From: Candidatus Blautia faecipullorum
GTDB lineage: Bacteria > Bacillota > Clostridia > Lachnospirales > Lachnospiraceae
Direction: 5' to 3'
Assembly: GCA_019115125.1 (NCBI GenBank)
Contig: DXEG01000036.1
Coordinates: 1-64,000, forward strand
Length of the DNA stretch: 64,000 nt
Both the position numbers and the translations under genes were made by a program. Each line of letters opens with the position of its first letter. Positions within the stretch are counted from its first letter, which is position 1. The notes below the pieces were generated by a model that was given only the letters and a program-made list of their open reading frames with translations, was not told the origin of the DNA and ran no database searches. Below, piece by piece: positions 9,379 to 60,752 of the stretch.

Positions 9379-10875
9379 ATGGGGCAGTACATTATGGCGA
9401 TGGATCAGGGAACTACAAGTTCCAGATGTATTCTTTTTGACAGGGCGGGAAATATCTGCAGTGTGGCGCAGAAGGAATTTGCGCAGTATTATCCTCACCC
9501 TGGATGGGTGGAGCATGACCCCCACGAGATCTGGTCGTCCCAGATGGCGGTAGCCATAGAAGCTATGGGGAAGATCGGAGCGGACGCGGAGGACATTGCC
9601 GCTATCGGGATTACCAATCAGAGAGAGACGACGATCGTCTGGGACAAAAGAACCGGAAATCCTGTCTATCCGGCAATCGTCTGGCAGTGCCGCCGCACCG
9701 CCGATATGATCGAGGAGCTGAAAAAGGACGGATTTGCGGATAAGATACAGGAAAAAACAGGTCTGGTACCGGACGCATATTTTTCCGCTACCAAGATCAG
9801 ATGGATCCTGGATCATGTACATGGCGCGCAGGAGGCGGCGGAAAGAGGCGAGCTTCTTTTCGGTACAGTAGACACATGGCTGATCTGGAAGCTTACCAAA
9901 GGGCAGGTCCATGTTACAGATTATACCAACGCGTCGCGTACAATGCTGTTTGACATTTATAAAAAACAGTGGGATAATGAAATCCTGGAAAGACTGCGGA
10001 TTCCTGCCGTTATGCTGCCGGAGGTGAAGCCCAGCAGCAGTGTCTACGGATATACCAATGAGAATCTGATAGGAGGAAGGATACCGATCTCAGGAGCCGC
10101 CGGAGATCAGCAGTCCGCGTTGTTCGGCCAGTGCTGCTTTGCTCCGGGAGACGTAAAAAATACATATGGGACAGGCTGCTTCCTTCTTATGCATACCGGA
10201 AACCGTCCGGTGCGCTCCGGCCACGGTCTTCTGACCACGATCGCGGTGAACCCGGACGGAACTCCGGGATACGCGCTGGAAGGAAGCGTGTTTGTGGCGG
10301 GGGCGGCGATCCAGTGGCTTCGTGATGAAGTGCAGATCCTCAATAGCGCCCCGGAATCAGAACGTTACTGCCTGTCGGTGCCCGATACCAACGGAGTCTA
10401 TGTAGTGCCTGCCTTTACAGGACTGGGAGCTCCCTATTGGGATCCGTACGCCAGGGGAGCGGTCCTGGGCCTGACCAGAGGAGCCGGAAAAGCCCATCTT
10501 ATCCGCGCTACGGTAGAGTCGCTGGCATATCAGGTGTCGGATGTGATCCATGCAATGGAAATGGATTCCGGTATGAAGCTCAACGCTCTCCGCGTGGACG
10601 GGGGAGCCAGCGCCAATAATTTTCTCATGCAGTTCCAGGCGGATCTGCTGAATGTTCAGGTGGTGCGCCCAAGCTGCATTGAAACTACCGCTCTGGGAGC
10701 GGCGTATCTTGCGGGACTGGCGGTGGGCTTCTGGAGAGATGCTGACGAGATCAGGAAAAACTGGCAGATGCAGAGGGCGTTTTCTCCGGAGATTACGGAG
10801 GGATACCGTCAAAAACTTCTTAAGGGCTGGCAGAGAGCAGTAAAATGTACCTTCGGCTGGGCCCGGGAGGAATGA
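9379..10875 (+). CDS. glpK: Glycerol kinase
   Basis: A 498-residue FGGY-family kinase forming glycerol 3-phosphate. The N-terminal ATP-binding motif is [16 protein letters not shown], followed by the glycerol-kinase signature [13 protein letters not shown] and a C-terminal [15 protein letters not shown] block. Length and motifs match true GlpK closely. The start at 9379 follows AAGGAAGG. It stands apart from glpF or glpD here, so it may be transcribed alone or with the downstream lipoprotein gene 28 bases away. A second glycerol-kinase-like protein occurs at 58156. Confidence 0.94.
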
Positions 10876-50202: not shown

Positions 50203-50500
50203 GATGAGGTTATATAAATGATATTTGTATAGAGTTATTTGAGAATTTAAAAATAATTTATATAAAAATTTATATAAACGTTTATGAAAGAGGAAATAGA
50301 AAAGCGTACATAATGCAGGGAGAGAAGGAGAAAATATGTGCAAATTGAATAATTTTAAATAAATATAATTGTATATATGGACGAAATGAACGTAAAAATA
50401 CCAAAAAACTATTGAAATAAATATATAAATATTTATAATAAAAATCACAAACGCGGCAGGACGACCGCACAAAAAACCTACATATAAAGGAGGACAAAAA
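50203..50500 (+). promoter_or_regulatory. AT-rich control region of the sugar operon
   Basis: Nearly 300 AT-rich bases without a gene. A perfect LacI-type palindrome ATAAACGTTTAT lies at 50274-50285. A promoter TTGAAA (50412-50417), 16 bases, TATAAT (50434-50439) precedes the binding-protein gene. The palindrome is upstream of the promoter, so looping or activation rather than simple blockage may apply. It could also serve catabolite control, since CcpA sites share its ACGT core. Confidence 0.65.
50274..50285. promoter_or_regulatory. LacI/CcpA-type palindromic operator
   Basis: ATAAACGTTTAT is a 12-bp perfect palindrome with central CG, as bound by LacI-family proteins. The operon's last gene encodes such a regulator. 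Confidence 0.6.
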
Positions 50501-51589
50501 ATGAAAGTGAAGAAAATGTTGGCATGTGCAGTGACAGCAGCAATGGCAGTCTCCGCATTGAGCGCGCCGGTTATGGCGGAAGAAGCAGAGCTGCTCCCGG
50601 GCGGAGGAAGCAACATCATCTACTGCATCACTCCTTCCCCCTCCAATCCCTACTTCAAGACAGTTCAGGACATTGCGACCGCAAAAGGAGAGGAGCTTGG
50701 CTACGAAGTAAAATGCCAGTCTCATGACGACGACGCGGCAAAACAGCTTGAGATGTTTGAAGCAGCCATCGCGGACGGCGCGGCAGCCATCATCTGTGAC
50801 AACGCAGGCGCAGACGCTTCTATCGAGGCAGTGCAGAAAGCTTATGACGCCGGAATCCCCACTTTCCTGGTAGACCGTGAGATCAATGAGTCCGGTCTTG
50901 CAGTCGCGCAGCTCGTAGCGGACAACGCGCAGGGCGCGGCAGCTATCGCAGAAGCATGGGTAGAGGCTATGAACTATGAAGGACAGTACGCGGAGCTTCT
51001 GGGACTGGAATCCGACACAAACTGCCAGGTTCGTTCCGACAACTTCCACTCTGTGATCGACGAGTATCCGGATCTTGAGATGGTAGCTCAGCAGTCCGCG
51101 AACTGGGATCAGACCGAGGCATATGAAAAGACCGAGGCCATTCTTCAGTCCAATCCGGAGATCACCGGAATCATCTGCGGAAACGACACCATGGCATGCG
51201 GCGCCGTTCAGGCATGTATCGACGCAGACCGCGAGGATATCAAGATCATCGGCGTTGACGGCTCCGACGAAGCAAACGCATACATCAAATCCGGCAACAT
51301 GGTAGGTACCGCTCTTCAGCAGATCGCTCTGATCACTGAGATGGCAGTAGAGCAGGCGGACGCATATCTGAACGGAACAGCTCCGGAGCAGGAAAAACAG
51401 CTTATCCCCTGTGTAGCTGTTACCGCTGACAACACAGACAACCTTTCCGGTTTCGTATACACAGAAGAAGGCGCGGCAGATGACACAGCAGCCGAAGAAG
51501 AAGTAACCGACGAGGCAGCAGCCGAAGAAGAGGCGGCAGACGACGCAGCGGCAGAAGAAACAGAAACCGAGGAGACAGAGGCAGAATAA
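50501..51589 (+). CDS. Sugar or polyol ABC transporter substrate-binding protein (RbsB type)
   Basis: A 362-residue exported protein with signal peptide ending near APVMAEE and no lipobox. The mature part has YCITPSPSNPYFKTVQD and SHDDDAAKQLEMFEAAIADG, close to binding proteins of erythritol, ribitol and related substrates in the RbsB fold. ICDNAGADASI and LVDREI line the ligand cleft. From about residue 320 it ends in an acidic Ala/Glu/Asp/Thr tail similar to that of ModA at 13490. It is the first gene of the operon. The start follows AAAGGAGG. Confidence 0.92.
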   Translation: MKVKKMLACAVTAAMAVSALSAPVMAEEAELLPGGGSNIIYCITPSPSNPYFKTVQDIATAKGEELGYEVKCQSHDDDAAKQLEMFEAAIADGAAAIICDNAGADASIEAVQKAYDAGIPTFLVDREINESGLAVAQLVADNAQGAAAIAEAWVEAMNYEGQYAELLGLESDTNCQVRSDNFHSVIDEYPDLEMVAQQSANWDQTEAYEKTEAILQSNPEITGIICGNDTMACGAVQACIDADREDIKIIGVDGSDEANAYIKSGNMVGTALQQIALITEMAVEQADAYLNGTAPEQEKQLIPCVAVTADNTDNLSGFVYTEEGAADDTAAEEEVTDEAAAEEEAADDAAAEETETEETEAE

Positions 51590-51673
51590 TCATTGCGAAA
51601 TGTTTCAGAACATATCTCAAAAGGCGGTGCAGTGCGCCGCCTTTTATCTTAAAACTGCAAGGAGAAGATAGAT

Positions 51674-52261
51674 ATGAAAAAAAGAGTATTCTTTATGGCG
51701 ATGGCAGCGGTCATGGCAGTGTCCGTTACCGGCTGCGGCATTGTGAAAGTCGTTCCCATCGGGGAAGAAGCGGCATATTCCGGAGAGGAAGTATTTGATT
51801 CCGCGGCGGAGTCCAGCAGCGACTGGGAACAGGTGGCTGCGGAGATCACCGATGGAGCCGCGGACCTGGCAGAGGTGCTGGACGGAGACGGTGTAGGAAC
51901 GGCGGCGGCAGTTTCCGGTACGGCAAAGATCGTGGAATTTAATACCGATACCCCGAAATATTATCTGCTGATCGAGCCGGAGGGCTACACCGGCGACGCG
52001 GAGATCCGCATCCAGGCCGGCGGCGTTTACTCCGGCACCGCGCTCCGAGACGTACAGACGGTGAAAAACTTCGAGTCCTTTACCAATCAGACAGAATGGT
52101 CTCAGTACGGAAAAGCGCTGAACTCCGAGGTAGACACGCAGGTGGTGGCGCCTCTTGCGCTAGATGACAGCGTGGCGGGAAAGACGGTGACCTTTGCTGG
52201 TGCGGCTACAGAGAGCGCAGACACTGTAACCATCACTCCGGTTTCCTTAACGATTGAATAA
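51674..52261 (+). CDS. DUF2291-like lipoprotein of the ABC transporter
   Basis: A 195-residue lipoprotein with lipobox VSVTGCGIVKVVP. The rest is beta-rich, with DTPKYYLLIEPEGY and IRIQAGGVYSGTALRD. DUF2291 proteins are found beside RbsABC-like operons, including, from memory, rhizobial polyol transporters. It may help hold the non-lipidated binding protein at the membrane. Function is inferred from context. Confidence 0.75.
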   Translation: MKKRVFFMAMAAVMAVSVTGCGIVKVVPIGEEAAYSGEEVFDSAAESSSDWEQVAAEITDGAADLAEVLDGDGVGTAAAVSGTAKIVEFNTDTPKYYLLIEPEGYTGDAEIRIQAGGVYSGTALRDVQTVKNFESFTNQTEWSQYGKALNSEVDTQVVAPLALDDSVAGKTVTFAGAATESADTVTITPVSLTIE

Positions 52262-52275
52262 AAAGGAGGAGCATT

Positions 52276-53814
52276 ATGTTTGACGATCCCAATGTTGTTC
52301 TCCATTGTGAAAAAATAGATAAGATTTATCCAGGCACCAAAGCGCTGGACGGTGTTTCCTTCGACCTTCTCAAAGGCCAGGTAAACGTTCTGATCGGCGA
52401 GAACGGCGCAGGAAAATCCACACTGATGAAAATGATCGCCGGAATCGAACAGCCCTCCGCAGGAAAAATGTACATGGACGGACAGGAAGTGTATTTTAAG
52501 GACACCAACGCTGCCCGGGCAAAGGGCATCGGCATTATCCATCAGGAGCTTAGTCTTTTTTCCAATATGACAGTTTATCAGAACATCTTTATCGGTCATG
52601 AGGAAAAGAAAGGATTGTTCCTCAATGACAAAGAGCATATCAAAGGCGCGGAAAAGATCCTGAAGCGGCTGGAGCACGAGATCCCGCCGGACACCATGGT
52701 GGGAGACCTCCGTGTGGGGCAGCAGCAGATGGTGGAGATCGCGCGCAACCTGATCCAGGACGATCTGAGAGTCCTTATCATGGACGAGCCCACTTCCTCC
52801 CTTTCCGCCGCGGAAGTAAAGGTTCTTTTCAAAATTATGAAAGAGCTTCTGGAACAGGGGATTTCCATTGTTTACATATCTCACCGTCTGGAAGAGATCA
52901 TGGAGATCGGAGATCACGTGACCATTCTCCGGGATGGAAAATATGTGGCGGACGCGGCGGTCAAGGACATCGAGCTGAGCTGGATTGTAGAAAACATGGT
53001 GGGAAAGAACACAGAGTACCATCGTTTTGAGCGCGGCATCGATCTGGACCATGCGGAAAAGATCTTGGAGATCAAAAATCTGAACCTTCCCAAGACAGGC
53101 GGCGGCTGGCTTTTGGAGGACGTGAACATGTACCTGAAAAAAGGAGAGGTTCTTGGAATTTACGGCCTTCTGGGCGCGGGGCGGAGCGAACTGTTTGAAT
53201 GTCTTATGGGACTTCGGCCGGAGCATACCGGGGAGATCATTTACGAGGGCAAGCCGCTCAAGGTAGCCAGTATCTCCGCGCAGATCAAGAACGGCTTCGC
53301 GCTGGTGCCAGAGGATCGGCAGCGTCAAGGACTGATCCAGACGCTGGATATCTGCAAGAACACCTCTATTTCTTCTTTAAAGGATTATGTAAGAGGCATT
53401 TTCCTGAACAATAAGGCGGAGGAAGCGGCGGTAGATGAGCAGATCAAGGATATCCATATCAAGGTGGCGGACAAAAAGCTTCCGATCCTGTCGCTCTCAG
53501 GAGGAAACCAGCAGAAGGTTGTTATCGGCAAGGGGCTTCTGACAAAGCCGAAGGTTCTGCTTCTGGACGAACCTTCCCGCGGTATTGACATCGGGGCGAA
53601 GACAGAAGTATTTGAAATTATTCATGACCTTTCTGAACGTGGACTTTCTATTATCGTGATCTCTTCCGAGCTGAAAGAGATCATGGCGATCGCTGACAGA
53701 ATTTATGTACTGTCCAACGGAAAATGCACCGGTGAGCTTGCCGGAGATGAAATCAACGAGGACACTCTTGTCCGTACATCCTATGCCGGACTTGGCACAG
53801 GCAAGAGTGCGTAA
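52276..53814 (+). CDS. Sugar or polyol ABC transporter ATP-binding protein (RbsA/MglA type)
   Basis: A 512-residue double ABC ATPase. The first Walker A is GENGAGKST and the second the usual degenerate GLLGAGRSE. Signatures are LRVGQQQMVEIARN and LSGGNQQKVVIGKGL. The fused layout is typical of ribose/galactose importers. The start follows AAAGGAGGAGC. The permease gene follows 22 bases later. Confidence 0.95.
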   Translation: MFDDPNVVLHCEKIDKIYPGTKALDGVSFDLLKGQVNVLIGENGAGKSTLMKMIAGIEQPSAGKMYMDGQEVYFKDTNAARAKGIGIIHQELSLFSNMTVYQNIFIGHEEKKGLFLNDKEHIKGAEKILKRLEHEIPPDTMVGDLRVGQQQMVEIARNLIQDDLRVLIMDEPTSSLSAAEVKVLFKIMKELLEQGISIVYISHRLEEIMEIGDHVTILRDGKYVADAAVKDIELSWIVENMVGKNTEYHRFERGIDLDHAEKILEIKNLNLPKTGGGWLLEDVNMYLKKGEVLGIYGLLGAGRSELFECLMGLRPEHTGEIIYEGKPLKVASISAQIKNGFALVPEDRQRQGLIQTLDICKNTSISSLKDYVRGIFLNNKAEEAAVDEQIKDIHIKVADKKLPILSLSGGNQQKVVIGKGLLTKPKVLLLDEPSRGIDIGAKTEVFEIIHDLSERGLSIIVISSELKEIMAIADRIYVLSNGKCTGELAGDEINEDTLVRTSYAGLGTGKSA

Positions 53815-53836
53815 GGCGGGAAGGAGAAAGTAAGCA

Positions 53837-54877
53837 ATGAACAAAAAAACAAACAACAATCAATTATTAATGACCCTGTTAAAAGGGCGTACCTTTATCG
53901 TTTTGATCCTTCTGGTGATCTTCTTCAGCGTTGTAAAGGACAACTTCCTTGCTCCTTCCACCCTGACCATGGTGGCGAAGCATGTGGCGCTGTACGGTAT
54001 TTTGGCCCTTGGCATGACCTTTGTCATCATCACCGGCGGAATCGACCTTTCGGTGGGCTCGGTTGTCGGTCTGGTAGGTATGCTGGCCGGCGGAATGATC
54101 CAGGAAGGCCTCACCCTTAAATTTGCAGGCGTGACCCTTTATTTCAGCGTACCCATGATCGTGATCTTCATGCTGGTTGTGGGATGCCTCATCGGCGCGG
54201 CCAACGGTCTGATCATCACCAAGCTGAACGTAGCGCCCTTTATCGCGACCCTGGGTACCATGTATATCTGCCGCGGCTTCGCGAACCTGCGCTCCAACGG
54301 AGCGACCTTCTCCGATATCGCGGGTTATGAAGGCCTTGGAAACACCGGCTTCAAGGCTCTGGGAAGCAACTTTGCCAGCATCCCGGCAGGCGTTTATGTA
54401 TTTGCCATCCTCGCGGTGATCGCCGCCGTTCTTCTGAAAAAACTGCCCTTCGGCTGGTATGTCCTGGCAGTGGGCGGCAACGAAAAATCCGCACGTCTGT
54501 CCGGTATCAAGGCGGACAAGATCAAGATTCTTGTGTACATGATCTCCGGCTTCTGCGCAGCCTGGGTAGGTATGATCAATACCGCGCAGCTTTCCGCGGC
54601 ACATCCGGCATCCGGCGACGGCTGGGAAATGAACGCTATCGCGGCGACCGTGCTGGGCGGTACCTCCATGAGCGGCGGCTCCGGAACCGTCCTTGGAACT
54701 GTTGTGGGCGCCTTCGTGATCGGCGTGATCAATGACGGTATGACTATGTGCGGTGTGTCTGAGTTCTGGCAGAAGGTCATCCGCGGCGTGGTGATCATCC
54801 TCGCGGTAGTGATCGACCAGACTCAGAGAAACCTGCAGGCCAAGATGGCTCTTCAGGCACGCAACGAGAATAAATAG
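53837..54877 (+). CDS. Sugar or polyol ABC transporter permease (RbsC type)
   Basis: A 346-residue BPD_transp_2 permease with about eight to ten helices. Motifs are VIITGGIDLSVGSVVGLVG and TVLGGTSMSGGSGTVLGT, both typical of RbsC. The start follows AAGGAGAAAGTAAGC. The isomerase gene begins 21 bases downstream. Confidence 0.95.
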   Translation: MNKKTNNNQLLMTLLKGRTFIVLILLVIFFSVVKDNFLAPSTLTMVAKHVALYGILALGMTFVIITGGIDLSVGSVVGLVGMLAGGMIQEGLTLKFAGVTLYFSVPMIVIFMLVVGCLIGAANGLIITKLNVAPFIATLGTMYICRGFANLRSNGATFSDIAGYEGLGNTGFKALGSNFASIPAGVYVFAILAVIAAVLLKKLPFGWYVLAVGGNEKSARLSGIKADKIKILVYMISGFCAAWVGMINTAQLSAAHPASGDGWEMNAIAATVLGGTSMSGGSGTVLGTVVGAFVIGVINDGMTMCGVSEFWQKVIRGVVIILAVVIDQTQRNLQAKMALQARNENK

Positions 54878-54898
54878 CTGCTAAGGAGGTAGAAACCT

Positions 54899-56299
54899 AT
54901 GGAAAAAATTAAACTTGGATACGCGCCGACGCGCCGCAGCATTTTCAGCGCGCCGGACGCTGTCAAATACCGCGGTCTGACTGCGGACCGCCTGACGGAA
55001 CTGGGAATTGATTTCGTGGATATCACAGACATCAACGAGGAAGGACTCCTCTACAATGATGCGGATATGGAAAAGATTGCCGAGAAATTCAAAGCGGAAA
55101 AGATCGACGGACTGTTTCTTCCCCACTGTAATTTTGGCACGGAGTTTGAATGTGCCAGACTGGCGAAAAAGCTGAATGTTCCGGTGCTTCTCTGGGGACC
55201 GCTGGACGAGCGCCCCGATGAGAACGGCGTGCGTCTGCGGGACACGCAGTGCGGCCTGTTCGCCACAGGAAAGGTACTCCGGAGATTTCAGATTCCCTTT
55301 ACCTACATGACAAACTGCCGTCTGGACGATCCGGTCTTTGAGAGAGGACTTCGCGATTTTATGGCTGTCTGCAACGTGGTAAAGACCTTCCGTAATATGC
55401 GGATCCTGCAGATTTCCACGAGACCCTTTGAGTTCTGGACAACCATGTGCAATGAGGGAGAGCTTCTGGAGAAGTTTAACATTCAGCTTTCTCCGATTCC
55501 CATGCCGGAGCTGACCGACGAGATCAAAAAAGTAAAAGCCGAGGGGAACGAGGTTGCCAAAGTCGTTGCGTACTGCCGTGAAAATATGAAAATCGAAGTC
55601 AAGGACGACGAGCTGGAGAATGTGGCCGCCCTCAAGGTCGCCATGAGGAATCTGGTGGACAAATACGGCTGCCAGGCGGCGGCGATCCAGTGCTGGAATC
55701 AGCTCCAGTCTGAGATCGGCATCATGCCCTGCGCGGCAAACTCCCTTCTCAACGAGGAAGGAATCCCCGTTGTGTGCGAGACTGATATCCACGGCGCTAT
55801 CACCGCGCTTCTGGTAGAGGCGGCAGGCATGGGCGAGACCAGAAGCTTTTTCGCGGACTGGACTATCCGCCATCCTGATATTGAAAACGGCGAGCTTCTG
55901 CAGCACTGCGGCCCCTGGCCCATCTCTGTGGCGAGAGAGACGCCTAAGATCACCTATCCGCTGGCATTCGATCATCCCGGCGCCATCACCGCCGAGGCAA
56001 AGCATGGCCTGGTGACTCTGGCGCGTTTCGACGGGGACAACGGCGAATACTCCATGCTCCTTGGAAACGCCAAAGGCGTGGACGGTCCCAAAGGTATGGG
56101 TACCTATCTGTGGGTGGAAGTGGACAATATCAAACGTCTGGAAGCAAAGATTGTAGAAGGCCCGTACATTCATCACTGCGTCGGTATCCACAAGGATGTG
56201 GTTCCCGTACTCTACGAGGCATGCAAATACATGGGAATCAAACCGGATCTGTACGACCCGGTGGAGGAGCAGGTAAAAGCATATCTTCGCGGTGAATGA
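54899..56299 (+). CDS. L-fucose/L-arabinose isomerase-fold sugar isomerase
   Basis: A 466-residue protein of the FucI/AraA superfamily. The N-terminal Rossmann-like region has GLFLPHCNFGTEFE. The C-terminal half has CETDIHGAITALLVEAAG and HPGAITAEAKHGLVTL, which hold the expected Glu, Asp and His metal ligands. It should convert an aldose to a ketose. Sequence features do not decide which sugar. The neighbouring transketolase and FGGY kinase indicate that the ketose is phosphorylated and then cleaved or transferred. Confidence 0.85.
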   Translation: MEKIKLGYAPTRRSIFSAPDAVKYRGLTADRLTELGIDFVDITDINEEGLLYNDADMEKIAEKFKAEKIDGLFLPHCNFGTEFECARLAKKLNVPVLLWGPLDERPDENGVRLRDTQCGLFATGKVLRRFQIPFTYMTNCRLDDPVFERGLRDFMAVCNVVKTFRNMRILQISTRPFEFWTTMCNEGELLEKFNIQLSPIPMPELTDEIKKVKAEGNEVAKVVAYCRENMKIEVKDDELENVAALKVAMRNLVDKYGCQAAAIQCWNQLQSEIGIMPCAANSLLNEEGIPVVCETDIHGAITALLVEAAGMGETRSFFADWTIRHPDIENGELLQHCGPWPISVARETPKITYPLAFDHPGAITAEAKHGLVTLARFDGDNGEYSMLLGNAKGVDGPKGMGTYLWVEVDNIKRLEAKIVEGPYIHHCVGIHKDVVPVLYEACKYMGIKPDLYDPVEEQVKAYLRGE

Positions 56300-56376
56300 C
56301 AGGAGGAAAAAGCTTGGAAGGAAACTTCCGAATCTACCATTGTTGGCGCAGCCAGTGCGCCATGAAAGGAGCAAAA

Positions 56377-57207
56377 ATGGAAAATTTAAAAGCAAAAGCA
56401 TATGAGCTCCGCAAGGACGTCATCCGGATGATCGTATCCGGAAAGGGCGGACACATCGGCGGGGACATGAGCGTGATGGAAATACTGGTTTCTCTTTACT
56501 TTCATGAAATGAACGTAAGCCCGGAGAATTTCTCCGACCCCAACCGTGACAAGTTTGTCATGAGCAAGGGACATTCTGTGGAGGCGCTGTACGCGGTTCT
56601 GGCTGCGAAGGGCTTCTTCCCTATCGAGCAGGTGATCGCGGAATTCTCTAAATTTGGTTCTAAATTTATCGGCCATCCCAACAACAAGCTGCCGGGCATT
56701 GAGATGAATTCCGGCTCTCTGGGACACGGACTTCCCGTGTGCGTGGGTATGGCTCTGGCGGAGAAAATGAACGGCAGAACGGCAAGAGTTTATACGGTCA
56801 TGGGAGACGGCGAACTGGCAGAGGGCTCTGTGTGGGAGGGCGCCATGGCGGCGTCCCACTACAAGCTGGACAATCTCTGCGCTGTGGTTGACCGCAACCG
56901 TCTGCAGATTTCCGGAAACACAGAGGATGTGATGCACCACGACGACCTGAAGGCCCGCTTTGAGAGCTTTGGCTGGAATGTGCTCAGCGTGGACGGCAAC
57001 AATATCGACGAGCTGAACGAAGCCTTTGCAGAGGCCCGCACAGTAAAAGGAATGCCTACCGTGGTGATCGCCAACACAGTGAAGGGCTGCGGTTCTCCGG
57101 TGATGGAGAACAAGGCAAACTGGCACCACAAGGTTCCAAATGAAGAAGAAATGGCTCAGATCATGAGTGATCTGGAAGCAAGAAGGGAGGCTGCGGAGCA
57201 TGAATAA
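56377..57207 (+). CDS. Transketolase N-terminal subunit
   Basis: A 276-residue protein equal to the TPP-binding half of transketolase. It begins with a helix then GGHIGGDMSVMEILVSLYF and has the TPP motif GDGELAEGSVWEGAMAAS. The ATG at 56377 follows AAAGGAG; the frame opens at 56296 without coding character. It overlaps the C-terminal subunit by eight bases, so the halves are made in equal amounts. Split transketolases occur in specialised sugar pathways, including, from memory, apulose phosphate cleavage and the sulfo-transketolase route. Confidence 0.92.
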   Translation: MENLKAKAYELRKDVIRMIVSGKGGHIGGDMSVMEILVSLYFHEMNVSPENFSDPNRDKFVMSKGHSVEALYAVLAAKGFFPIEQVIAEFSKFGSKFIGHPNNKLPGIEMNSGSLGHGLPVCVGMALAEKMNGRTARVYTVMGDGELAEGSVWEGAMAASHYKLDNLCAVVDRNRLQISGNTEDVMHHDDLKARFESFGWNVLSVDGNNIDELNEAFAEARTVKGMPTVVIANTVKGCGSPVMENKANWHHKVPNEEEMAQIMSDLEARREAAEHE

Positions 57208-58132
57208 GATACCAAACAGACAGGCGATCTGCGAGGTGCTCATGGAGCACGCAAAAGAGGACAAGATGATTACGGTACTGTGCAGCGATTCCAGAGGATC
57301 CGCTTCCATGACGTCCTTTGCGGACGCATTTCCGGAGCAGTTTGTGGAGACCGGGATCGCGGAGCAGAATCTGGTGAGCATTTCCGCGGGACTGGCAAAA
57401 GGCGGTAGAAAGCCCTACGCGGCATCTCCGGCATGTTTTTTGTCCACCAGAAGCTATGAGCAGGCGAAAGTGGACTGCGCATATTCCAATACCAACGTAA
57501 AACTCATCGGCATCAGCGGCGGCATCAGCTACGGCGCGCTGGGTATGAGCCATCATTCCGCCCAGGATATCGCGGCAATGTCCGCCATCCCCAACATGCG
57601 CGTGTACCTTCCCAGCGACCGCTTCCAGACAAGATGTCTGATCGAGGCGCTATTGAAGGACGAGAAGCCGGCCTACATCCGTGTGGGAAGAAATCCGGTG
57701 GAGGATATCTACGAGGAGGGCAAGGTTCCCTTTGTTATGGACAAGGCGACGGTTCTCTGTGAGGGAACGGACGTAGCCATCATCGCCTGCGGAGAGATGG
57801 TAAAGCCGGCCTATGACGCGGCAAAGCTTCTGGGAGAAAAAGGGATTTCCGCCACGGTTCTGGATATGTACTGCGTGAAGCCCCTGGATAAAGAGGCCGT
57901 TGTAAAGGCCGCCTCCAACGCGAAGGCAGTGCTTACCGCGGAGGAGCACTCTCCCTTTGGCGGGCTTGGCTCCATGGTAAGCCAGGTGGTAGGCGCGGAG
58001 TGTCCGAGGAAGGTTGTAAACCTGGCGCTGCCGGACGAGCCGGTCATCACGGGAACCTCCAAAGAAGTGTTTGACTACTACAGACTGAACGCGCAGGGAA
58101 TCGCGGCGAAAGCGGAAGAACTACTGAAATAG
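57200..58132 (+). CDS. Transketolase C-terminal subunit
   Basis: A 310-residue protein with the central pyrimidine-binding and C-terminal domains: FVETGIAEQNLVSISAGLAKGG carries the catalytic Glu, and EHSPFGGLGSMV lies in the last domain. It forms the active site with the preceding subunit. A second full transketolase for the pentose phosphate pathway is expected elsewhere. The kinase gene follows 23 bases later. Confidence 0.92.
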   Translation: MNKIPNRQAICEVLMEHAKEDKMITVLCSDSRGSASMTSFADAFPEQFVETGIAEQNLVSISAGLAKGGRKPYAASPACFLSTRSYEQAKVDCAYSNTNVKLIGISGGISYGALGMSHHSAQDIAAMSAIPNMRVYLPSDRFQTRCLIEALLKDEKPAYIRVGRNPVEDIYEEGKVPFVMDKATVLCEGTDVAIIACGEMVKPAYDAAKLLGEKGISATVLDMYCVKPLDKEAVVKAASNAKAVLTAEEHSPFGGLGSMVSQVVGAECPRKVVNLALPDEPVITGTSKEVFDYYRLNAQGIAAKAEELLK

Positions 58133-58155
58133 TGCCAGATAAGGAAGAGTGACAT

Positions 58156-59634
58156 ATGGCGAACTATGTACTGGGCATCGATCAAAGCACCCAGGGTACG
58201 AAAGCGCTTCTGTTTGGTGAGGACGGGAAGCTTCTGGAGAGATGCGACCTGCCTCACCGGCAGATCGTCAACGAGCGGGGCTGGGTCGAGCATGACCTAA
58301 ATGAAATATACGCAAATACCATCCAGGTGGTGAAAAATCTGGTGGAGAAGGCGGGCATCCACAAAAGCGAGCTGAGGGCTGTGGGGATCAGCAATCAAAG
58401 AGAGACCGGGGCCTGCTGGAACAGAGAGACAGGCGAACCGGTGTACAATGCCATTGTGTGGCAGTGTGCCCGGGGCGCGGCTATCTGCGAGCGCATTGAA
58501 GGCGAGGGCGCGGCGCAGATGATAAAGGAGCGGACCGGGATTCCCCTTTCCCCGTATTTTACCGCAGCCAAGCTGGCCTGGATCTTTGAAAATGTGGACG
58601 GCGTGAAGGAGCTGGCGCAGGAGGGAAAGATTGCCTGCGGCACCATAGACAGCTATCTGGTGAACCGTCTTACCCGGGGAGAACGGTTTCAGACCGATTA
58701 CTCCAACGCGTCCCGGACACAGTTGTTTAACATCCATACCCTTGCATGGGATCCGGAGATTCTGGAGATATTCGGGATTCCGGCCTCCTGTATGGCGAAA
58801 GTGACCGACTCCGACGGAGATTACGGCACAACGGATTTTGACGGCTTTCTGGACGATCCCATTCCCATCCGCGGCGTCCTGGGAGATTCCCACGGCGCTC
58901 TGTTCGGACAGGGCTGTCTGGAAAAAGGTATGGTGAAAGCTACCTACGGAACGGGCTCCTCCATCATGATGAATATCGGGGAGACTCCGGTTTCTACCGA
59001 TCTGGGCGTTGTGACTTCCCTGGCCTGGTCCATGGGCGGCAAGGTCAATTATGTTCTGGAAGGGAACATCAATTATACAGGGGCGGTCATTACCTGGCTG
59101 AAGGACGACTTAAAGCTGATCTCCTCCGCCGGTGAGACGGAAGCGCTGGCACGGCAGGCCGCGCCGAGGGATCAGACGTATCTGGTTCCGGCTTTCTCTG
59201 GGCTTGGCGCTCCCTACTGGGACAGCAAAGCTACCGCTGTGATCTGCGGTATGACCAGGACCACCGGACAGGAGGAAGTGGTGCGGGCGGCTCTGGACTG
59301 TATCGCGCATCAGATTACGGATATCGTGGAGATGATGGGGGAAGCGTCAGGGATCCCTATTGGGGAGCTGCGCGTGGACGGCGGCCCCACCAGGAATGGT
59401 TATCTGATGCAGTTCCAGAGCGATATGCTGGGAATTCCTGTGAGCATTCCGGAATCCGAGGAGCTTTCTGGAATCGGCGCCGCTTATGCGGCGGGATTTT
59501 CCGCAGGGATTTTTGACAAAGAAGTATTCTATCGTCTGGGAAGAAAAAGCTATGCGCCCCAGATGGAACCGGAAAAGAAGGATGAGATCCGGAAAGGCTG
59601 GAAGAATGCCGTCCGGCTTGTCATGAGAAAATGA
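58156..59634 (+). CDS. FGGY-family carbohydrate kinase, glycerol-kinase-like
   Basis: A 492-residue FGGY kinase. LGIDQSTQGTKALLFG binds ATP, and GISNQRETGACW and GDSHGALFGQGCL resemble glycerol kinase more than xylulokinase. GlpK at 9379 is a paralogue, but this one sits in a sugar operon after a sugar isomerase, so a ketose or small polyol is the more likely substrate. An apulose or erythritol-type substrate fits the operon. The start follows AAGGAAGAG. The LacI gene follows behind its own promoter. Confidence 0.88.
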   Translation: MANYVLGIDQSTQGTKALLFGEDGKLLERCDLPHRQIVNERGWVEHDLNEIYANTIQVVKNLVEKAGIHKSELRAVGISNQRETGACWNRETGEPVYNAIVWQCARGAAICERIEGEGAAQMIKERTGIPLSPYFTAAKLAWIFENVDGVKELAQEGKIACGTIDSYLVNRLTRGERFQTDYSNASRTQLFNIHTLAWDPEILEIFGIPASCMAKVTDSDGDYGTTDFDGFLDDPIPIRGVLGDSHGALFGQGCLEKGMVKATYGTGSSIMMNIGETPVSTDLGVVTSLAWSMGGKVNYVLEGNINYTGAVITWLKDDLKLISSAGETEALARQAAPRDQTYLVPAFSGLGAPYWDSKATAVICGMTRTTGQEEVVRAALDCIAHQITDIVEMMGEASGIPIGELRVDGGPTRNGYLMQFQSDMLGIPVSIPESEELSGIGAAYAAGFSAGIFDKEVFYRLGRKSYAPQMEPEKKDEIRKGWKNAVRLVMRK

Positions 59635-59637
59635 TGT

Positions 59638-59674
59638 TTTGCTTGTTGCAAACCGGGGGACGGTAGGGTAGAAT
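59638..59674 (+). promoter_or_regulatory. Promoter and overlapping palindrome before the LacI gene
   Basis: TTGCAA (59646-59651), 17 bases, TAGAAT (59669-59674) sits after the kinase gene. The palindrome TTTGC, five bases, GCAAA (59638-59652) covers its -35 box and may be an autoregulatory site. Confidence 0.6.
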
Positions 59675-59753
59675 AAAATTAAATATTTACATAAATTTTT
59701 ATATTCTGCCCAATGCAGGAGTTGCTGTGCGGAATACAGGAACGGAGTCACAT

Positions 59754-60752
59754 ATGAAGGTGAGTGTGAAAAAAATCAGTGAAATCACAGGTTTTTCGCC
59801 TGCTACGGTTTCCAATGCATTAAACTACAAACGGGGCGTCAACGCGGAAACATCCGCGCACATTTTGAAAGTAGCCAAGGATCTGGGATATTTTGATGAG
59901 AATCATATCACAAAGGTAAAATTTGTTATGTTCAAGCGAAACGGCATTGTGGTGGAGGATACGCCGTTCTTTCCGGCGATGATCAGCGGTGTGGAGCAGG
60001 AATGCCGTACCTGCGGCATGGAGATGAGCCTCTGTGATCTGGACAGAAGGCATCATGATTTTAAGGAGCAGGCGAAATGGCTGATGAATGACAAAGCGGC
60101 GGCGGTGATCCTTCTGGGAACAGAGATGATAGATGAGGATATCGATCTGATCCGGGGCATTACAAGTCCTTTTATCGTGATTGATTACTGGAGAGAGGAT
60201 ATGTCCTTTGACGCGATGCTCATCAACAACGCGGATTCAGCACGGATGGCGACAGAATACCTGATCGCCAACGGGCACCGTGAGATCGGATATCTCCGGG
60301 GCAGTTTCCGCATCAAGCCGTTCCGGTCGCGGTTTGTCGGGTATCAGACGGCGCTTCAGAAGGCGTCCATCTCTTTGCAGAAAAACTATATTGTGAATTT
60401 GTCCCCTACTATGGACGGGGCATGTGCGGACATGCGGGCGTATCTTGCCAAAAAACCTGAGCTTCCCACGGCGTTCTTTGCGGACAACGACATGATTGCT
60501 CTGGGCGCCATGAAGGCTATGCGGGAATGCGGCATCCGGGTTCCGGAGGACGTGTCGGTGGTCGGCTTTGACGACCTGACTTTTTCGTCGATTTCCGATC
60601 CGCCCCTGACAACCCTGCGGGTGCCAAAGCGCGAGATGGGCCGGGCTACGGTCCGCCGTCTCCGGGATATGATCAAGGACAAAGACGATACAAAGCTGAA
60701 AATACAGATGTGCACGCAGTTCGTGGAACGGGACAGCGTGCGGAGGATTTGA
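59754..60752 (+). CDS. LacI-family transcriptional regulator
   Basis: A 332-residue regulator. The N-terminal HTH is KKISEITGFSPATVSNALNY with a hinge helix, and the ligand domain has SPFIVIDYWRED and PEDVSVVGFDDL. The ATG at 59754 has CGGAG seven bases upstream; a GTG at 59727 with AGGAG is an alternative. It likely senses an intermediate of the upstream operon. A strong terminator follows. Confidence 0.92.
   Translation: MKVSVKKISEITGFSPATVSNALNYKRGVNAETSAHILKVAKDLGYFDENHITKVKFVMFKRNGIVVEDTPFFPAMISGVEQECRTCGMEMSLCDLDRRHHDFKEQAKWLMNDKAAAVILLGTEMIDEDIDLIRGITSPFIVIDYWREDMSFDAMLINNADSARMATEYLIANGHREIGYLRGSFRIKPFRSRFVGYQTALQKASISLQKNYIVNLSPTMDGACADMRAYLAKKPELPTAFFADNDMIALGAMKAMRECGIRVPEDVSVVGFDDLTFSSISDPPLTTLRVPKREMGRATVRRLRDMIKDKDDTKLKIQMCTQFVERDSVRRI

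Follow-up and report, generated by a model that had tools for sequence, protein, structure and literature searches.

A predicted operon for D-apiose import and catabolism in Candidatus Blautia faecipullorum

Which sugar is served by a nine-gene operon of Candidatus Blautia faecipullorum is the question raised by this locus. The window, that is, the whole 64-kb stretch of DNA that was analysed (positions 1 to 64,000 of contig DXEG01000036.1; part of contig C9 of the 3.5-Mb draft genome G000), carries nine + strand genes with short gaps spanning 50501-60752, as seen from open reading frames and Pfam/NCBIfam scans. In this order, they encode a solute-binding protein (SBP), a DUF2291 lipoprotein, an ATP-binding cassette (ABC) ATPase, a permease, an isomerase, the N- and C-terminal subunits of a split transketolase (TktN and TktC), an FGGY kinase and a LacI-family regulator. 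A first-pass annotation of this DNA had recognized the operon and named its genes correctly, missing only the one for the DUF2291 lipoprotein; it left the sugar unassigned, proposed a new variant pathway and remarked on a parallel with the apiose route. That parallel was right: the apiose route is the likely function, and no new pathway is needed. Sequence, predicted fold and genomic context point, with a probability that we put at roughly 0.85, to the import and non-oxidative catabolism of D-apiose. The pathway itself is known, and the enzymes of the window are distant versions of it.

The strongest lines for this assignment are the type of the SBP, the association of the enzyme cassette with apiosidases, a signature in the kinase, and the kinship of parallel cassettes to the apiose genes of Escherichia coli. 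According to the reaction chemistry of this route, the SBP and its CUT2 ABC transporter would import free D-apiose, and a metal-dependent isomerase of the AraA/FucI fold would convert it to the ketose apulose. The GlpK-like kinase would then phosphorylate a terminal CH2OH to give apulose 4-phosphate, from which the two-subunit transketolase would transfer the C1-C2 unit to glyceraldehyde 3-phosphate, yielding xylulose 5-phosphate and dihydroxyacetone phosphate. The net product, xylulose 5-phosphate, would enter the pentose phosphate pathway.

Binding protein and importer

The SBP (50501..51589, 362 aa, PF13407), classed here as an apiose-type CUT2 SBP, gave as best PDB matches 5ibq and 4ry0 (E about 2e-93), followed by the ribose binder 2fn8 (E 3e-61). 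The two best matches are listed under no name beyond 'probable ribose ABC transporter'; we take both to come from Rhizobium etli, and the 5ibq structure to hold D-apiose. In Rhizobium ruizarguesonis, an SBP 55% identical to that of the window lies beside DUF2291 and ABC genes, at a distance of two genes from one annotated as OiaX (3-oxo-isoapionate-4-phosphate decarboxylase) and about 12 kb from a DUF5060/apiosidase-type gene, so that this type of SBP is tied to apiose independently of the 5ibq ligand. Compared by sequence only, the window SBP was 49-55% identical to this Rhizobium protein and the SBPs of enterobacterial cassettes. Proteins of the enterobacterial and Rhizobium clusters were also 46-48% identical to the RbsA-type ABC ATPase (52276..53814, NCBIfam/Pfam) and 50-54% identical to the RbsC-type permease (53837..54877, PF02653).

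The gene for the predicted DUF2291 lipoprotein (51674..52261, PF10054, 107.5 bits) was present in all 13 SBP-bearing loci of the host family, Lachnospiraceae. The window SBP has no lipobox, its signal ending in ...PVMA-EE, and carries an acidic C-terminal tail of roughly 40 residues; the DUF2291 lipoprotein might tether such a lipobox-free SBP. A lipobox-like Cys starts 13/13 SBPs from other genera of the family; of six SBPs of the same genus, four are without a lipobox, L257 has a lipobox-like site and L255 was unreadable. The SBP was found at E 1e-80 or better in 7/41 genomes of the genus sample, own included, and the operon is therefore patchy in the genus.

The transporters of related cassettes vary (SBP-type ABC, phosphotransferase system (PTS), others), and the imported form may thus vary as well, for instance to apiosides. 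Import of an apiose derivative, or of another branched C4-C5 sugar, instead of free D-apiose is nevertheless very unlikely for the window, whose importer is of the SBP type common to Rhizobium and Enterobacterales. In addition, no glycosidase was found among the Pfam matches of the nine genes, and a search of the genome for two families linked to apiosidases (PF13204 and DUF5060) found neither.

The enzyme cassette and its genomic associations

The kinase (58156..59634), proposed to be a D-apulose 4-kinase, belongs to the GlpK subfamily, passes the wider PRK00047 model (581.7 vs 498) and is 38% identical to E. coli AplK. It misses the TIGR01311 equivalog cut-off for glycerol kinase (558.0 vs 590.35 bits). 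This cut-off is exceeded by a GlpK (741.6 bits) whose gene, at window positions 9385-10860, precedes that of the operon kinase by about 48 kb. The operon kinase keeps the NQRET motif, the W and the D preceding the changed Gln, and reads GDSH and TGSS where two GlpKs (that of the window and PDB 3g25) read GDQQ and TGxF; a Gln and a Phe of GlpK are thus both Ser. The replaced positions are presumably Gln246 and Phe270 of E. coli GlpK, lining the glycerol pocket. Glycerol as the substrate was rejected on the TIGR01311 score and the replaced pair. Both replacements occur in 39/39 cassette kinases, 17 of them Gram-positive, 11 enterobacterial (including AplK of E. coli SE15) and 11 from other phyla (Bacteroidota, Verrucomicrobiota and Planctomycetota). 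They occur together in none of the four other FGGY proteins of the host genome, and the window GlpK has neither. Apulose ends in HOCH2-C(OH)(R)-CH2OH, which is a glycerol unit with a hydroxyacetyl group at C2. As a C2-substituted glycerol, it would suit a glycerol-kinase scaffold with an opened, widened pocket, and the paired Ser changes may offer an easy way of distinguishing apulose kinases from glycerol kinases by sequence.

An isomerase at about 70% identity or more was found in 50/299 sampled genomes of the host family, own included, two of them carrying it in pieces; in a sample of the phylum, a match at E 1e-150 was obtained in 5/299 genomes, own included. Among 49 loci fetched from the other isomerase-bearing genomes and surveyed within eight listed genes, each neighbour being named after its closest BLAST hit in a small set of references, TktN came next in 48 and TktC in 47, the kinase was nearby in 46, and all three accompanied the isomerase in 46. 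The exceptions were L055, L164 and L186, the last at a contig end. As accessory genes, these loci carried the SBP with DUF2291 (13), an apiosidase-type glycosidase (15) or a Listeria-like PTS (1). A ribokinase-family gene stood beside 7/49 cassettes (L042, L046, L049-L053). PF13204 was above its cut-off in 34/50 isomerase-bearing genomes vs 18/249 of the rest (Fisher p 9.5e-20, with no correction for relatedness), and 13 of 64 PF13204 matches lay within 10 kb of the isomerase, four short ones of the 68 matches over the cut-off being left out of this count.

Three apiosidase-type proteins were scanned with Pfam. In Monoglobus pectinilyticus, from the plasmid collection, the isomerase (81% identical) is followed by TktN, TktC and the kinase, and then by a DUF5060 + Apiosidase-family protein (60 bits). 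The Listeria monocytogenes locus L034, also from the plasmid collection, keeps the order isomerase-TktN-TktC-kinase (identities of 73%, 58%, 58% and 38%, respectively), after which come a PTS and a member of the Apiosidase family (PF13204, 313 bits) in place of the ABC importer of the window. From its gene order, this operon appears to be lmo1030-1036, which PMC2996996 lists as a cluster of disparate distribution.

A parallel gene set was observed in the cassettes of Klebsiella (L036), Sodalis (L039) and Rahnella (L040), which hold SBP, DUF2291, ABC, a SorC-like regulator, TktN, TktC, isomerase and kinase. Their TktN, TktC and kinase are 70-79% identical to AptA, AptB and AplK of E. coli SE15, whose genes are named aptA, aptB and aplK in the passages of PMC13001218 drawn on here. 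These passages report growth on D-apiose for E. fergusonii, three cluster-bearing E. coli strains and Pectobacterium, and not for K-12. Named-genome loci were collected with a combined isomerase alignment, short contigs included; among the best 80 of 585, with neighbours again labelled by BLAST, TktN was in the same locus in 24/29 enterobacterial-type loci and in 44/51 others (Bacteroidota, Verrucomicrobiota, Chloroflexota and others). Within the same best 80, an apiosidase-type match was found in seven (L065, L084, L096, L101, L102, L103, L134), an OiaX-like gene in three (L118, L133, L139) and a Pectobacterium locus in none. In one of the seven, Kluyvera L065, an enterobacterial cassette lies close to a PTS (62%) and an apiosidase (48%) of the Listeria type, so that two distant isomerase clades meet the same partners; we read this as one pathway served by both.

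The two-subunit transketolase of the non-oxidative D-apiose pathway is present in the cluster as the AptA-like, thiamine diphosphate-binding TktN (56377..57207, PF00456, 175 bits) and the AptB-like TktC (57200..58132, PF02779/PF02780), 43% and 36% identical to E. coli AptA and AptB, respectively. Both starts are uncertain, with longer frames beginning at 56296 for TktN and 57167 for TktC, and the identity comparisons of TktN ran from 56374, one codon upstream. The other transketolase of the genome is split as well, as are most sampled in the host family, and for this reason the split proves nothing alone and was discarded as evidence for apiose. In a tree of TktN (all trees were quick, with SH-aLRT support only), 39/39 cassette rows were separated by a fully supported branch from 25/26 other split TktN of the family, the exception, L219, grouping with the cassettes.

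The isomerase (54899..56299), proposed to be a D-apiose isomerase, gave nothing beyond unrelated weak matches in a sequence-profile search against the PDB, and a fold comparison was therefore needed. In the comparison of predicted structures, AraA was the closest fold; hhalign with AraA gave E 7e-4 at a probability of only 25.8. The positions of the putative metal ligands E294, D320, H336 and H426 are conserved. By predicted fold and these putative ligands, the cluster holds a predicted aldose-ketose isomerase, as called for by the non-oxidative D-apiose pathway. Only two named models matched, both far below their cut-offs: SftI with 115.8 bits (cut-off 700) and AraA with 20.4 (cut-off 622). 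L-arabinose was rejected as the substrate on the latter score. Separate AraA, GlpK and sulfoquinovose-isomerase-like genes are encoded elsewhere in the host genome, the last being an SftI-like protein at G000:C22:67252-68577 (415 bits, under the 700 cut-off), and SftI-like proteins were also seen in 20 other of the 299 sampled family genomes.

The SftI match, the strongest of any named model, would fit a sulfo-transketolase (sulfo-TK) type pathway for sulfoquinovose, with an isomerase of the SqvD/SftI superfamily and a transketolase split like SqwGH; a FucI-family isomerase and a transketolase are used by sulfo-TK according to the part of PMC9594981 drawn on here. The window isomerase shares with SftI/SqvD the superfamily and the four ligand positions, but it fails that equivalog, has a Pro at position 425 and falls in a separate clade, 12/12 SftI-like rows of the isomerase tree forming a third, distant clade (100%). 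Since the genome has the separate 415-bit gene, the pathway as described has no role for the kinase, and the Pfam families of its other enzymes are not among the matches of the nine genes, sulfoquinovose is hardly credible as the substrate.

The closeness of the AraA fold and the ribose binders in the family of the SBP would also suit another rare or ordinary pentose, such as D-arabinose, D-ribose or a lyxose, and the sequence by itself reveals no step specific to a branched sugar. Such a pentose would be converted to a ketopentose and, after phosphorylation, passed on to a transketolase dedicated to it. We consider this unlikely, since a bona fide AraA is encoded elsewhere and the SBP fits the R. 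etli pair far better than the ribose binders. Such a route gives no reason for the glycerol-type kinase signature or for the apiosidase association, and for an ordinary pentulose 5-phosphate a transketolase of its own should be unnecessary.

Counter-evidence and origin of the isomerase

Several observations weigh against the assignment to D-apiose and are gathered here. The window isomerase shares only about 27% identity with its enterobacterial counterpart, which belongs to a different clade. Loci L142 and L144 hold Sodalis-like isomerases (45-46% identical) with no transketolase genes nearby, which means that the superfamily alone does not stand for apiose and that neither clade is tied to apiose only. 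At L055, the isomerase is accompanied by a DUF5060 gene, with no transketolase or kinase nearby. The kinase tree (rows from 14/15 requested family loci, 11/12 Bacteroidota-type and 8/8 enterobacterial) does not set all cassette kinases apart from GlpK or resolve one origin, and the window TktN is closer to the other split TktN of the genome (49%) than to AptA (43%), an unspecific similarity. The importer and an apiosidase-type gene occurred together in 0/49 family loci, so that the apiosidase link runs via the enzyme cassette and not via the importer of the window. Furthermore, PF13204 is a broad family that gives low scores to proteins of the DUF5060 type: 60 bits, and 42 where the locus end truncates the protein. 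As its own genome has neither family, the organism could do no more than scavenge apiose freed by others. Finally, the cluster of E. coli SE15 (L038, 12042-17944) has no isomerase gene, in line with an Escherichia cluster without apsI in the consulted portion of PMC13001218, and its SBP is divergent (36% identical to that of the window). This SBP is without the ANW and SDTN features of other apiose-type SBPs, and the compound imported by SE15 may therefore differ. The SE15 cluster also holds two short-chain dehydrogenase/reductase (SDR) oxidoreductases.

The isomerase tree included 14/49 family cassettes together with the window, Monoglobus and Listeria, 7 enterobacterial rows and 12 + 5 others. 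In it, the isomerases of the Gram-positive cassettes group in a single clade (99%), which sits within other isomerases from the same family; a deep clade of its own (99%) unites the enterobacterial proteins with those of Bacteroidota type. Of the 20 paralogue loci fetched, 19 yielded an isomerase sequence; two of these (L160 and L157) had long branches and were left out. Among the 17 paralogue rows of the tree, L141 stands with a whole cassette and L147 with a nearby transketolase-like gene; none was listed near the others, by the same BLAST labelling. The paralogues of L142, L143 and L144 (57-60% identical to the window isomerase) lie beside other FGGY-like kinases, without transketolase. At L160, a distant relative (29%) has neighbours that are TktN-like (41%) and FGGY-like (25%), and this locus may be a further cassette of the kind.

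It is possible, though somewhat less likely than not, that the Gram-positive isomerase is a second, unrecognised D-apiose isomerase lineage from a local radiation of Clostridia isomerases with other functions and not an orthologue of the enterobacterial/Bacteroidota enzyme, the route having been assembled at least twice and the kinase being a GlpK re-tooled by the same two replacements. The distant isomerase lineage is what may be new, with independent recruitment possible. A search of the open-licence literature turned up no description of the isomerase sequence, the term 'apulose' matching no paper, and we do not claim that the Gram-positive isomerase is unpublished. In the portion of PMC13001218 used here, the degradation of apiose by gut Clostridia is stated with reference to an earlier paper (Carter et al.), and the Gram-positive route may thus already be described there.

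Regulator and comparison with known systems

The LacI-family regulator (59754..60752) scores above the cut-off for PF13377 and slightly below it for PF00356 (25 of 27 bits); its start is uncertain, the listed frame beginning at 59727 (GTG). The identity comparisons took Met as the first residue of each reference protein and used TktN and LacI frames that began one codon off the preferred start. A motif search gave as candidate LacI operator the palindrome TATAAACGTTTATG at 50273..50286, the sole site with at most one mismatch in the window. A site of this type was present in 5/49 related loci in a search made with the window motif itself, and general conservation of the operator was not seen, as a filter for CG-centred palindromes matched 6/64 upstream stretches (two of them from the window) vs a background of 8.65%. 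A sigma-70-like promoter, TTGAAA-16-TATAAT, lies at 50412..50439 on the + strand by consensus match only (11/12), 16 promoter-like sites having been found in the stretch against 9.6 expected. De-repression on apiose or on a pathway intermediate is the probable mode of control.

Apiose occurs in rhamnogalacturonan II and in plant glycosides. It is called a component of plant cell walls in the part of PMC13001218 drawn on here, and the cassette would mark bacteria that could use it. The assignment also gives a testable substrate to genes publicly labelled 'glycerol kinase' and 'L-fucose/L-arabinose isomerase'.

The non-oxidative D-apiose pathway reportedly comes from Carter et al. 2018. Oxidative apiose/apionate pathways left no trace in a scan limited to the nine operon genes, whose matches included neither OiaX nor apionate enzyme families. 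With the cassettes of Klebsiella, Sodalis and Rahnella, the operon shares the gene set and the isomerase superfamily, and it differs from them in the isomerase sequence (the identity of about 27% given above), the regulator family and the gene order. The first-pass annotation had not associated the FucI/AraA fold with the apiose route; this objection is weakened because those three cassettes and many other loci carry an isomerase of the same superfamily. It had also held that high identity to the enzymes of a single known pathway, with matching operon content, would speak against a new variant: such content was found, the enzymes being only 36-43% identical to those of the E. coli apiose cluster.

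The known pathway, ApsI-AplK-AptA/AptB, corresponds to MetaCyc PWY-8089 according to the portion of PMC13001218 used here. The operon of the window departs from it in having LacI in place of a SorC-type regulator, in the distance of its enzymes from the E. coli proteins, and in an isomerase of a far-off clade, which would correspond to ApsI in role. Both systems have in common the isomerase, the FGGY kinase, the two-subunit transketolase and the CUT2 importer with DUF2291, and the kinase of the window bears the site signature of E. coli AplK.

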